This document shows, piece after piece, positions 11,477-35,594 of a stretch of 35,725 bases of DNA. The notes under the pieces were generated by a model. That model saw only the letters and a program-made list of their open reading frames with translations. It was not told the origin of the DNA and did not search any database. The stretch's first letter is position 1. Each line of letters starts with the position of its first letter. The stretch comes from Planctomyces sp. (GTDB lineage: Bacteria > Planctomycetota > Planctomycetia > Planctomycetales > Planctomycetaceae): positions 1 to 35,725 of the forward strand of contig SXPC01000172.1 in NCBI GenBank assembly GCA_005778225.1. Direction: 5' to 3'. A program made the position numbers and the translations under genes.

Positions 11477-12745
11477 ATGGCTATCAAGGGACTGGCACAA
11501 TTCCGTTTCAAACACATCACACTCGCCCTTTGCGCCATAACTCTCTCGCTGAACCTCAGCGGCGTGACGTTCGCCCAAGCGGCTGCTCCGACCAAAGAAT
11601 ATCAGCCCGCTGTCCCTGATTCTGCTCCGATCACAGACCGCGAATACGAACAGTTCGCAACATCGCTCGAACAGGATATCTACGCCGAGCCCAACGTCGA
11701 CTTCCAGAAGTTCTGCAACATGGACTGGCTGACCCAGCGCGTCGCCGGTGATATGGATCAGAAAGACACCAAGATCAAAGACCTGATGGCCGGCTGGAAA
11801 CAAGGCTATATCCAGTCCAACCCTCTCTCACTCATGCAACAACTCGTCCGTGATGGCGGTTCGTACGACTTCCTCAAAGTCCTCGATGGTGCAACCGGCA
11901 AACAAAGCAAACGCGTCATCTTCCGCATGGTTCGACCAGACGGAGGCTACAATTACCACGAATTCCTCCTCGCCAAATCTCCCGATGGCAAGGTCCGCGC
12001 CTACGACATCTTCACCCACCTCAACGCCGAATTCCAATCCGAAACCTCGCGACGCCTCCTCCTGTATTACATCCAGCAGAACGAAGCCAAACTCCTCACC
12101 GAAATCTCAGGCACCGAAAAAGCAGAACTCGAAAACGTCACCAAACTCCAGCAGATGGCCGAGTTCAACCAGCTCAAGCAATACGAGAAGGCTCTCCTCG
12201 TCTATTACCAGATGCCCGAACAGACTCAACAACTCAAGCACGTTCTGACCATGCGCTTCACCGCCGCCTTCGGCAAAATGGACCATGAAGAGATCATCAA
12301 GACCTACGACGATTTCCAGAAAAAATATCCCGCCGATAACTGCCTGAACTTCCTCGGCGTCACCTACTTCTCCTCCAAAGGCGATTACGACAAGACCATC
12401 AAATGCCTCGATGCCATCAGTCAGGCCATCAAAGGCGATCCCTTCCTCGACATCAAAAAAGCCGAGATGTACGAGGCCAAAGACGAATACGCCACCGCCG
12501 AAAAAATGACCCTCGCCGCCCTCCAGCAGGACTCCAGCCTCATCGACGGCTACTGGCTGATGATCACCATCTCCCTCAATCAGGAAGATCACGCCAAGAC
12601 CCTCGAGTGGCTCAAAAAGATCGACTCCCAGTTCGAAATGGACTGGAACGACATCTCCGCCGTCGAAGACTACAGCGAATTCATCAAGTCCCCTCAATAC
12701 AAAGAGTGGACCAAATACCTCGCCAACAAACCCAAGAAGAAGTAA
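11477..12745 (+). CDS. Secreted TPR-like repeat protein, function unknown
   Basis: The 422-residue protein starts at ATG 11477 behind a strong AGGAGG six bases upstream. The N-terminus FKHITLALCAITLSLNLSGV then TFAQA is a signal peptide cleaved near residue 35. The second half is helical and repeats in TPR fashion: QLKQYEKALLVYYQMPEQTQQ, YDKTIKCLDAISQAIKGDP, YATAEKMTLAALQQDSSLIDG and HAKTLEWLKKIDSQ. The first half (residues 60-200) has FRMVRPDGGYNYHEFLLA and may form a separate alpha/beta domain. TPR proteins mediate protein contacts, and the export signal places this one outside the cytoplasm. I see no catalytic motif. An inverted repeat follows the stop at 12776-12834. Confidence 0.87.
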   Translation: MAIKGLAQFRFKHITLALCAITLSLNLSGVTFAQAAAPTKEYQPAVPDSAPITDREYEQFATSLEQDIYAEPNVDFQKFCNMDWLTQRVAGDMDQKDTKIKDLMAGWKQGYIQSNPLSLMQQLVRDGGSYDFLKVLDGATGKQSKRVIFRMVRPDGGYNYHEFLLAKSPDGKVRAYDIFTHLNAEFQSETSRRLLLYYIQQNEAKLLTEISGTEKAELENVTKLQQMAEFNQLKQYEKALLVYYQMPEQTQQLKHVLTMRFTAAFGKMDHEEIIKTYDDFQKKYPADNCLNFLGVTYFSSKGDYDKTIKCLDAISQAIKGDPFLDIKKAEMYEAKDEYATAEKMTLAALQQDSSLIDGYWLMITISLNQEDHAKTLEWLKKIDSQFEMDWNDISAVEDYSEFIKSPQYKEWTKYLANKPKKK

Positions 12746-12775: not shown

Positions 12776-12834
12776 AGTCATGAGTCGTGTGTTATGAGAT
12801 AAATCCCCCGAAACACCTTCTCCAACTCATGACT
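12776..12834. repeat. 10-base inverted repeat AGTCATGAGT / ACTCATGACT
   Basis: Perfect arms at 12776-12785 and 12825-12834 with 39 bases between, shortly after the stop of the secreted TPR-like gene. It may fold in the 3' end of that mRNA, but no T-run follows. Confidence 0.6.
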
Positions 12835-12860
12835 CATGACGAACGCGTCCCGTTCCCCCG

Positions 12861-12938
12861 TCCGGCTAAGCCCCAATCCCTAAGCCCCAATCCCTAAGCC
12901 CCAATCCCTAAGCCCCAATCCCTAAGCCCCACAAACCA
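12861..12938 (+). repeat. Tandem 14-base C-rich repeat abutting the argC start
   Basis: The head TCCGGCT (12861-12867) is followed by four exact units AAGCCCCAATCCCT from 12868, and a partial fifth ending at about 12931, seven bases before the argC ATG. The minus strand has alternating runs of four and three G with loops CTTA and ATT, which fits the G-quadruplex pattern. No Shine-Dalgarno sequence is left between the array and the start codon. A two-unit relative stands before the gene at 29908 and another, inverted, at 35568-35594. Confidence 0.9.
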
Positions 12939-13952
12939 ATGACCACAGTCGCCATCCTCGGAGCCACCGGCTACACCGCCGTCGAGCTGATCAAAATCCT
13001 GCTGCGACACCCGCACGTGAAAATCACCGCGGTCACCAGCCGTCAGGATGACGCCACGCCGATTCACGCCGTCCACCCGTCTCTGTACGGCCGCATCAAT
13101 CTCAACTGCGAGAACCTCACACCCGAACAAATCGCCGAGCGCGCCCAGGTCGCCTTCTGTGCACTGCCTCATACCGCCAGCATGGAAATCATCCCCAAGC
13201 TGCTGGCCCTCGGCGTGAAAGTCGTCGACCTGAGTGCCGACTACCGACTCCGAGACCCCGGCGTCTACGAAACCTGGTACGGCCACGTCCACACCGACCC
13301 GACTCGCCTCGGTTCCACCATCTACGGACTCCCGGAACTCTGGGCCGAGAAGATCCCCGGCCATGACCTCATCGCCAACCCCGGCTGCTACACCAGTACC
13401 TCCATCCTCGGTCTGGCCCCGCTGCTGGCTGGTGGCTATATCGAACCCGAGAACATCATCATCGACGCCAAGTCCGGCGTCTCCGGCGCAGGCCGCAAAC
13501 CGAAGCTGACGATTCACTACCCCGAGTGCAACGAAAGCATCTCCGCCTACAGCATCGGCAACCATCGACACACCCCCGAAATCGAACAGGTCCTCTCCGA
13601 CGCCTGCGGCAAACAGGTCAGCGTCATCTTCACCCCCCACCTCGTCCCCATGGACCGCGGCATCCTCGCGACCATGTACGCCCGCCCCGCCAAAGAAGCC
13701 ACCGAAGAACAGCTTCTCCAGGCCATGCGCGACTACTACCAGGGCAAGCCGTTCATCCGGGTCGTCGAGCACCTCCCCGGCACCAAAGACGTTGCCTACA
13801 CCAACTTCTGCGACATGACCGTCCGCCTCACCCGCGGACACGTCCTCGTCCTCGCCGTCACCGACAACCTCATCAAAGGCGCCTCCGGCGTCGCCGTCCA
13901 AAACTTCAACCTCATGCAAGGCTACGAAGAATCCACCGGCTTGCTGCCATAA
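12939..13952 (+). CDS. argC: N-acetyl-gamma-glutamyl-phosphate reductase
   Basis: The 337-residue protein makes N-acetylglutamate semialdehyde from the acyl phosphate with NADPH, the third step of arginine synthesis, in the cytoplasm. The NADP-binding start is [20 protein letters not shown]. The active-site Cys150 is in [23 protein letters not shown] and [12 protein letters not shown], typical of the family, are also present. Length is normal. argJ follows on the same strand after 80 bases, so the two form an operon, although an AAGGCGAGCG repeat occupies the gap. The start ATG 12939 has no Shine-Dalgarno sequence and follows the tandem repeat directly. Confidence 0.96.
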
Positions 13953-14032: not shown

Positions 14033-15232
14033 ATGACGAACGCTTCAGACTCAATTCGCCTCCCCCTCGGCTTCCAGACCAGCTCTCGCGCCTGCGGAAT
14101 CCGTGGCGATGTCGGACGCCTCGATCTGGCCTTGTTCTACTCCGAAGTCCCCGCCGTCGCAGCAGGCGTCTTCACGACCAACGCGGTCAACGGCGCCCCG
14201 GTCAAAGTCTGCCGTGAACGCCTCCCACGCTCCACCGCCCGCGCCGTCATCATCAACGCCGGCAACGCCAACGCCTGCACCGGCACGCAGGGCATCAAAG
14301 ACGCCAAAGAAATGACCGTCAGCCTCGCCGCTCAAATCGGCTGCCCTCCGGACGATGTCCTCGTCTGCTCCACGGGCGTCATCGGCCGCTTCCTGCCACT
14401 CTCTAAAATCACGACCAACATCCCCGAACTCTGGTCCAACCGCGGCGGCTCTCCTGACCACCTCGCCAACACCGCTCAAGCCATCATGACGACCGACACG
14501 GTTCCCAAGGTCGTCACACGCGAAGTCCCCATCAACGGCAAGACAGTCACGATCACCGGTGTCTGCAAGGGCGCCGCTATGATCGCCCCCAATATGGCGA
14601 CCATGCTCTGCGTCATCATGACCGACGCCGCTGTCAACGAAGAGACTGTTCAATCTCTCATGACCGAAATCGCCAATAACTCCTTCAACAGCATCACCGT
14701 CGAAGGCCACACCAGCACCAGCGATTCAATGATCCTCCTGGCGAATGGTCAATCCGGCGCCTCCCTGTCCGACTCCGTCGAACTCAAAGACGCCCTGCAA
14801 GCCGTCGCTTCGGAACTCGCCCAGAAAATCATCCGCGACGCCGAAGGGGCAGGGCACTTCGTCACCATCAACATCACCGGCGCCTACGACTCCGACCACG
14901 CCAACCTCCTCGGCAAAACGATCGCCAATGACGCCCTCGTCAAAACAGCCATCACTGGCAACGACCCCAACTGGGGCCGCATCGTCTCGGCGTGCGGTCG
15001 CACCGGCAACAACCTCACTGAAAACGACATCCTCTCCCTGTCGATCAACAACCTGACCATCTTCGCCCAGGGCGCCCCGACCAGCGAAGACCTCTCCAAA
15101 GTCTCCGCTGCCATGAAAACCGGCGAAGTCGTCATCGACCTCAAAATGTCCCTCGGCTCAGGCCAAGCCACCATCTGGACCTGCGACCTGACTCAGGAAT
15201 ACGTCCGCCTGAACGCCGACTATACGACGTAA
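14033..15232 (+). CDS. argJ: Bifunctional ornithine acetyltransferase / N-acetylglutamate synthase
   Basis: The 399-residue protein transfers acetyl from N-acetylornithine to glutamate, and may also make N-acetylglutamate from acetyl-CoA. The self-cleavage motif is KGAAMIAPNMATML, with Thr190 as the new N-terminal nucleophile after the precursor splits into alpha and beta chains. NAGNANACTG and TSTSDSMILLANG, and the substrate loop GNDPNWGRIVSACGR, are typical. Length is normal. It is downstream of argC in the same direction, so arginine synthesis here uses the cyclic acetyl pathway. The start ATG 14033 has no clear Shine-Dalgarno sequence. Its stop is 4 bases from the convergent stop of the esterase gene, leaving no room for a terminator. 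Confidence 0.95.
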   Translation: MTNASDSIRLPLGFQTSSRACGIRGDVGRLDLALFYSEVPAVAAGVFTTNAVNGAPVKVCRERLPRSTARAVIINAGNANACTGTQGIKDAKEMTVSLAAQIGCPPDDVLVCSTGVIGRFLPLSKITTNIPELWSNRGGSPDHLANTAQAIMTTDTVPKVVTREVPINGKTVTITGVCKGAAMIAPNMATMLCVIMTDAAVNEETVQSLMTEIANNSFNSITVEGHTSTSDSMILLANGQSGASLSDSVELKDALQAVASELAQKIIRDAEGAGHFVTINITGAYDSDHANLLGKTIANDALVKTAITGNDPNWGRIVSACGRTGNNLTENDILSLSINNLTIFAQGAPTSEDLSKVSAAMKTGEVVIDLKMSLGSGQATIWTCDLTQEYVRLNADYTT

Positions 15233-29865: not shown

Positions 29866-29907
29866 TCCGGCTAATTTCCAATTCCTAATTCCCAATTCCC
29901 ATCCCCC
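29866..29907 (+). repeat. 14-base-unit leader element before the glycosyltransferase
   Basis: TCCGGCT (29866-29872) is followed by two 14-base units, AATTTCCAATTCCT and AATTCCCAATTCCC, then ATCCCCC and the ATG. Head and unit length match the array in front of argC. No Shine-Dalgarno sequence is left. Confidence 0.8.
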
Positions 29908-31023
29908 ATGGCAACGATCTTCATGAGCATGTCCGGTGAGGGAAGGGGACATGCCACCCGCATGTGTTCACTCACCGAAGGTCTCAAGCAGGATCACCGC
30001 ATCGTCCTCTTCGCTCCCGCGGACGCCTATGCTTTCCTCGCTCCGCTCTATGTCGATGATCCCCAGGTCCAGGTCGTTGAACTCCCGGGCTTGATCTTTC
30101 ATTACGTCCAGGGCAAGCTCGCTGTTCTGACCTCGATCTACGAAGGCTTTCGCTACCTGCGCGAGACCCTCGACCCGCTCGTCGATCTGCTCTGCGAATG
30201 GATCGAACGCGAACGCCCCAGCCTGATCGTGACCGACTTCGACCCCGCTCTCCCTCGCGCCGCGATGCGCATGGGTGTCCCGTTCATCAGCTTCACCCAC
30301 CAGCACTTCCTCCTCGCCAACGACCTCTCCTTCCTCCCGCTCGATCTCAAGATCCACGCCTGGACCATGAGCTTCGGAGTCGCTGCTCATTATCGTGGCC
30401 AGTTCCTGACGATCGTCTCCTCGTTCTTCAAAGCTGACCTGCGCAAAGGCTATGAGGAGACCATTCAGGTCGGCCCGATGATCCGCCCCGACATCCGCAG
30501 CGCCGTCGTGACGGAAGGCGACTACTTCCTCTCTTACCTTCGTAAGAAGACTCCTGACTCCGTCGTCAAAGAGATCGTCAAGACCGGCCAACGGGTCCGC
30601 ATCTACGGCATCGGCGAACGAGAACCGGTCGGTAACGTGACGTTTCATGCCGTTAACCCTCAGAGCTTCGCACGCGATCTTGCTGGCACGAAAGCGATCC
30701 TCTGCGCAGCCGGCAATCAGCTCCTTGGCGAATCGGTCTTCCTTGGCAAGCCAGTCTTCGCGATGCCAGAAGCCGCTCACCATGAGCAGCAGATCAACTC
30801 GCAATTCCTCCGGCGGATGGGCTGCGGCGACTTCGTAACGCTCGAACGCTTTCGTGCTGAACAGTTCTTACGCTTTGTCGAGAACCTTGGCGAATACCGC
30901 CGTGTCATCGAGTCAACCTATCGTGGACGCGAGGGAACCGGCGACGTCGTGCAGATCATCAAGACCTGCCTGAATTCTGAAACGCTCGCCACTGCTCCGG
31001 CGCGTCAACTTGTGGGTGGATGA
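29908..31023 (+). CDS. MurG/UGT-type glycosyltransferase in the lipid cluster
   Basis: The 371-residue protein has two Rossmann-like halves typical of GT-B enzymes. The N-terminus IFMSMSGEGRGHATRMCSLT contains the G-E-G-x-G-H-A-x-R acceptor-side loop, as in GT28/UGT-like proteins. RPSLIVTDFDPALPRAAMRM and GVPFISFTHQHFLL follow. The donor-side half has AILCAAGNQLLGESVFLGKP, VFAMPEAAHHEQQINSQFLR and RMGCGDF, the nucleotide-sugar region. Its place downstream of btaA and btaB suggests a glycolipid product on diacylglycerol, analogous to the Agt glycosyltransferase found with plcP in other bacteria, but Agt is of another family, so this is inference. No signal peptide; expected on the cytoplasmic face. 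Confidence 0.88.
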   Translation: MATIFMSMSGEGRGHATRMCSLTEGLKQDHRIVLFAPADAYAFLAPLYVDDPQVQVVELPGLIFHYVQGKLAVLTSIYEGFRYLRETLDPLVDLLCEWIERERPSLIVTDFDPALPRAAMRMGVPFISFTHQHFLLANDLSFLPLDLKIHAWTMSFGVAAHYRGQFLTIVSSFFKADLRKGYEETIQVGPMIRPDIRSAVVTEGDYFLSYLRKKTPDSVVKEIVKTGQRVRIYGIGEREPVGNVTFHAVNPQSFARDLAGTKAILCAAGNQLLGESVFLGKPVFAMPEAAHHEQQINSQFLRRMGCGDFVTLERFRAEQFLRFVENLGEYRRVIESTYRGREGTGDVVQIIKTCLNSETLATAPARQLVGG

Positions 31024-35567: not shown

Positions 35568-35594
35568 GGGCTTGGGGATTGGGGCTTAGTCGGA
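35568..35594 (-). repeat. 14-base-unit element, inverted relative of the argC leader array
   Basis: On the minus strand: TCCGACT head (35594-35588), unit AAGCCCCAATCCCC, then AAGCCC. One base of the head differs from TCCGGCT at 12861 and 29866. No gene starts beside it in the window. Confidence 0.75.

Follow-up and report, generated by a model that had tools for sequence, protein, structure and literature searches.

A heptamer array at the argC start codon of a planctomycete: probably a member of a dispersed family of directional intergenic repeats

The closest described systems are two sets of bacterial heptamer repeats. Rehm et al. 2015 (PMC4692102) reported G-rich heptamers, GGGAATC and GGGGA(C/T)T, in Xanthomonas and Nostoc; according to the available part of that paper, these repeats are dispersed and mostly intergenic, usually consist of four units, form many inverted pairs and show no functional theme. 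Their G-strand begins on average 28 nt from an ORF, versus 160 nt on the other side, and is the non-coding strand at starts and the coding strand at stops. Quadruplexes were demonstrated for them by CD in vitro, and the same part of the paper identifies no role in gene regulation. MacGregor 2015 (PMC4679880) described TAACTGA direct repeats of Beggiatoaceae, Cyanobacteria and Bacteroidetes, which, again as far as the available part of the paper goes, occur in two to six copies, are directional and lie within several nucleotides of the start codon, usually where a ribosome-binding site is absent and with no functional theme. A looser likeness exists to REP/BIME and other intergenic palindromic repeats, which are also small, dispersed, located at gene edges and often arranged as inverted pairs, but whose unit is a palindrome and not a tandem heptamer array.

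Judged by its sequence, the array that precedes argC in the planctomycete genome studied here (Planctomyces sp., GCA_005778225.1; 5.1 Mb, 87% complete) belongs to this same kind of heptamer repeat. With the repeats of Rehm et al., as described in the available part of that paper, the genome shares dispersed G-tract 7-mers, a bias toward four units, polarity toward ORF edges and inverted pairs. Specifically, half of the units at argC are CCCCAAT, and this heptamer, when reverse-complemented and rotated, gives the GGGGATT of Nostoc. The differences are the phylum and the alternation of two units, of which GGGGATT fits the unit of Rehm et al. whereas GGGCTTA does not. A conserved head, TCYGRC, and its sharing with arrays that cannot form a quadruplex are found here and are not reported in that part of the earlier work, relative to which they are probably new. 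The TAACTGA repeats resemble one sister family found here (AATTNCG) in that neither is quadruplex-capable, but their unit is unrelated to those of the present arrays, they lie mainly at starts in the Beggiatoaceae genome, and the available part of that paper reports no head.

The argC locus and its array

The window (the whole stretch of DNA analysed, 35,725 nt of contig SXPC01000172.1) carries argC, encoding N-acetyl-gamma-glutamyl-phosphate reductase, at 12939..13952 of the forward strand (NCBIfam TIGR01850, 2.7e-123), and the codirectional argJ at 14033..15232, 80 bp downstream (NCBIfam NF003802, 1e-140), so both genes are what the original prediction had taken them to be. The argC start codon is sound, since relatives align from ArgC residue 1; these relatives are Planctomycetaceae, the best being about 69% identical and belonging to Schlesneria-like genomes, and no second genome of the same genus was present among the relatives searched. 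Upstream lies a codirectional TPR-like gene (11477..12745, forward strand, from the ORF list, with a weak TPR match), which ends 120 bp before the array.

The array itself occupies 12866..12931 of the forward strand, where TRF reports a period of 14, 4.7 copies, a 100% match and a score of 132 (the second-best array of the window scores 51). Four copies of AAGCCCCAATCCCT stand head to tail at 12868-12923, for which the chance expectation is 0.04 (sd 0.20). The true period is 7, as the heptamers CCCCAAT and CCCTAAG alternate, giving nine C-runs, one every 7 nt. The array is directly preceded by the conserved head TCCGGCTAAG (12861..12870, forward strand; the consensus TCYGRC followed by the first TAAG), whose first base is 12861. 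At the other end, the final CCCC closes at 12930, one base before the end of the TRF array, leaving a gap of seven bases (12932..12938, forward strand) before the ATG at 12939. On the minus strand the array reads as five GGGG and four GGG runs separated by loops of 3-4 nt; few such stretches in the 1.39 Mb of the genome that were sampled exceed its G4Hunter score of 1.70. By pattern and score it is therefore a strong quadruplex candidate and could fold, and the original description of a tandem array with a quadruplex pattern on the opposite strand is borne out.

The gap holds no Shine-Dalgarno-like sequence and none of AGGA, GGAG or GAGG was found before the argC ATG. This absence, which had been correctly noticed, is ordinary, because 68% of the called ATG starts in the genome also lack such a site: a four-base match is present at 244 of 768 of them, compared with 8.5% of control positions. 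A search around the array found no sigma-70-like promoter or intrinsic terminator, and no Rfam family was matched except a tRNA. An inverted repeat with a 13-bp outer stem (GTCATGAGTCGTG / CATGACTCATGAC) is located between the TPR-like gene and argC (12777..12840, forward strand); it was detected by RNA folding, with a z of -5.35 that was computed for the entire 215-nt leader region before argC, and is composed of units of another dispersed heptamer family, (CTCATGA)n, whose arrays also occur elsewhere in the genome (eight of them inside 20 kb in one stretch, L116). The argC array has no inverted C-rich partner array. Elsewhere in the window, at 1944-1976, a CTTCATC heptamer array has its 3′ end 2 bp from the end of an opposite-strand gene.

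It had been proposed that this array forms the leader of an argC-argJ operon and tunes its expression, that is, that a template-strand quadruplex whose strength depends on copy number would regulate both genes. The nine G-runs with short loops and the high G4Hunter score are in keeping with such a model, as are the position of the array against the ATG, the codirectional argJ that follows and the quadruplexes that CD revealed in comparable heptamer repeats (PMC4692102, from the part available). However, the array is not conserved at argC: a heptamer C-array precedes the gene in 0 of 39 argC orthologues inspected. Immediately before the argC ATG of a different planctomycete stand six perfect copies of CCACCACT, an unrelated 8-mer (L044:2452-2500).

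A dispersed family with polarity toward ORF edges

Genome-wide (5.1 Mb), about 20 loci have at least four C-runs at a spacing of seven, a count derived from 39 overlapping matches of which a few are unrelated C-rich DNA. The usual form of the family is CCCTAAGCCCCAATCCCTAAGCCC, with four runs, and four C-runs are found in most of 24 arrays. Across loci the number of runs varies from three to nine; the argC copy is the longest, the runner-up having seven, while a short copy with three C-runs and the head TCCGACTAAG lies in the same window on the minus strand (35568..35594). One inverted pair of C-rich arrays is located at L113 5056-5191. The neighbouring genes, named from Pfam matches, include infB, rbfA, ribH, purM, pheA, icd, dnaN, smc, rtcB, a gene for a succinate-dehydrogenase-type iron-sulphur protein and genes of the shikimate pathway; they are housekeeping genes without a common theme. 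Viral contigs, searched for exact matches to the core unit, yielded none.

This dispersal bears on another explanation, namely that the argC array is an ordinary microsatellite, formed locally from C-rich DNA ahead of the ATG. The perfect periodicity of the argC tail is what recent slippage would leave, and the sequence upstream of starts has a mild excess of C (0.29-0.30). However, such a compositional bias is far too weak, and the conserved head, the near-constant four runs and the matching copies elsewhere mark a dispersed element, so that this explanation is largely refuted and can be regarded as highly improbable.

The placement of the arrays was studied in a sample of 100 stretches plus the window (1.39 of 5.1 Mb, 20 of the stretches having been picked for holding arrays), in which the gene calls came from a home-made codon model. 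The 3′ side of the C-strand is the side nearer to an ORF edge in 16 of 17 arrays (sign test p = 1.4e-4), and in 15 of the 17 its 3′ end lies 0-20 bp from that edge, at eight starts and seven stops. The median distance to an ORF is 5 bp on this side, versus 124 bp on the other. When arrays are placed at random in the same gaps, 4.5 are expected within 20 bp against the 15 observed, and no more than 10 were reached in any of 20,000 trials. In the infB-rbfA gap there is one array at each end, both pointing outward. Compositional bias at gene edges was considered as a cause of the polarity and rejected, as C reaches only 0.29-0.30 before starts. The rule is not obeyed by every heptamer family, since CTCATGA arrays show the polarity in four of six cases, which is not significant.

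A shared head and arrays without G-runs

All five occurrences of TCCGGCTAAG in the 1.39-Mb sample stand directly before arrays. The head was also approached without presuming a repeat unit, by scanning for the hexamers that precede 7-periodic DNA; after the hexamers of the repeats themselves, TCCGGC ranks first. The consensus TCYGRC followed by 7-periodic DNA was observed at 17 sites versus about 1.6 expected (10.7x, p ~1.5e-12, a statistic that takes sites as independent, while some may be paralogous), and the control periods 6, 8 and 9 gave 1, 0 and 1. The tails after this head come from four unrelated heptamers: eight sites are C-rich, seven carry AATTNCG or AATTNCC, and two carry other heptamers. 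When the C-rich family is removed, nine sites are left versus at most 1.6 (p ~5e-5, a Poisson estimate). Among short periods, strong intergenic enrichment is confined to period 7 (24 arrays versus 0-3 for other periods) and its multiple 14.

The AATTNCG arrays consist of about four units and contain no G-runs. Their tail side is closer to the ORF in 10 of 10 intergenic cases, in nine of them within 20 bp and in all of those at a start, where the array ends 4-13 bp before the ATG (9/10). One sister element lies in the window itself (29866..29907, forward strand): a TCCGGC head, an (AATTYCC)4 tail and ATCCCCC directly before the ATG at 29908 of a glycosyltransferase gene of the MJ1255/VC2487 family. 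The layout is that of the argC copy, but AATT units are incapable of folding into a quadruplex. As arrays without quadruplex capacity have the same head and position, quadruplex potential looks incidental to the class; and since the AATTNCG arrays match in four-unit length and placement without G-runs, neither of these properties needs a quadruplex. The quadruplex model for argC meets further difficulties in that the element is also found at many unrelated genes and about as often at stops as at starts, and in that Rehm et al. state that they found no regulatory role for their repeats (PMC4692102, from the part available). The tuning of argC-argJ by the array is thus unsupported and, on sequence considerations, appears quite unlikely; a quadruplex switch specific to argC is possible but unlikely.

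The explanation that we consider the probable one is that the argC array belongs to a dispersed set of directional intergenic repeats, that its inner 14-mer has been amplified, and that it is tolerated at a gene edge. The element comprises the short head TCYGRC and about four heptamers, the last of which nearly touches an ORF start or stop. At argC, the inner pair CCCCAATCCCTAAG may have been amplified recently, via slippage or unequal recombination, to give nine C-runs and not four; its repetition without error suggests that this event was recent. Judged from a single strain, copies may have spread by a head-dependent copying or insertion process and would persist at gene edges mainly because these are the least harmful sites. 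The quadruplex would be a by-product of one unit type and not the reason for the element, and argC translation or transcription would be affected only incidentally, if at all. In this respect the argC array is a typical representative of a class of repeats about which little is understood, and the genome-wide pattern is more interesting than the single locus.

Neutral tolerance alone, however, does not explain why the C-strand points at stops as well as starts, which leaves room for function. Heptamer arrays, with or without G-runs, may be functional ORF-edge elements, for instance sites for an RNA- or DNA-binding protein, unstructured leaders for Shine-Dalgarno-free initiation at starts, or barriers to readthrough or mRNA 3′ ends at stops. 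The strict polarity within 0-20 bp at both starts and stops, the arrays at each end of the infB-rbfA gap, and the AATTNCG copies 4-13 bp before the ATG, where a Shine-Dalgarno sequence would lie, argue for such a role, and a comparable proposal exists for the TAACTGA repeats before start codons in Beggiatoaceae (PMC4679880, in the part available). Against this, arrays are found at a small minority of genes only and without a functional theme, none precedes argC in the 39 orthologues, and some lie in frame within a long helicase-like gene. Moreover, within one family the strand that enters the RNA at starts is opposite to the one that does so at stops, and a single RNA-level role does not fit both. 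A function of this sort seems rather unlikely, although it is the foremost alternative to the tolerated dispersed repeat.

The sharing of one head, phase and polarity by unrelated units (CCCTAAG, AATTNCG, CCTAGCG, TCATACT) would mean a common machinery. That such machinery recognises the TCYGRC head and lays down or maintains 7-nt gene-edge repeats across Planctomycetaceae, and perhaps in other phyla, with quadruplexes beside the point, is a speculative and, at present, unlikely proposition. Until now, gene-edge heptamer repeats have been interpreted as quadruplex elements on the ground that four units, their usual number, correspond to four G-tracts. The arrays without G-tracts found here match in unit count, head and placement, and therefore something else must account for the four-unit bias and the polarity. 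With quadruplex and non-quadruplex sister families in one organism, the nature of heptamer repeats becomes directly testable.

Other genomes and arrays inside ORFs

Heptamer-phased C-arrays (searched for generically, with five runs) were found in 83 of 150 genomes of the family, some chance C-tracts included, and the units are lineage-specific. Units and heads differ between genera: one complete genome, G001, holds 33 copies in which the head TCTGCGAAG (a few being one change off) precedes CCCGAAG-type units, the search pattern having been chosen after its heads were seen. Several of these copies form inverted pairs with the heads facing, and the polarity holds in 19 of 23 testable copies. In the same genome a 444-bp CCCGAAG array terminates next to a called gene's stop codon (L254:4436-4880, minus-strand coordinates). 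Polarity is seen in eight of eight arrays of G016, where a head is not obvious, and in two of four of G091, where the rule is not seen; inverted pairs are also present in G088.

In the genus g25, most arrays lie inside long called ORFs. A long helicase-like ORF resembling Lhr (L197:13052-18331, minus strand) stays open through five heptamer arrays, which encode, within what seem to be linkers, peptides such as ITNYELR and QLPITNYQLR; it also has REGEAPSEP-like segments that resemble translated intergenic repeats. Very long ORFs, polyketide-synthase-like in appearance, contain in-frame arrays of CCCTNAG units in G088 and G111 (L244, L245, L246, L247). These arrays likewise fall in apparent linkers, and several are inverted pairs whose heads (TCYGT) face each other about 40 bp apart.
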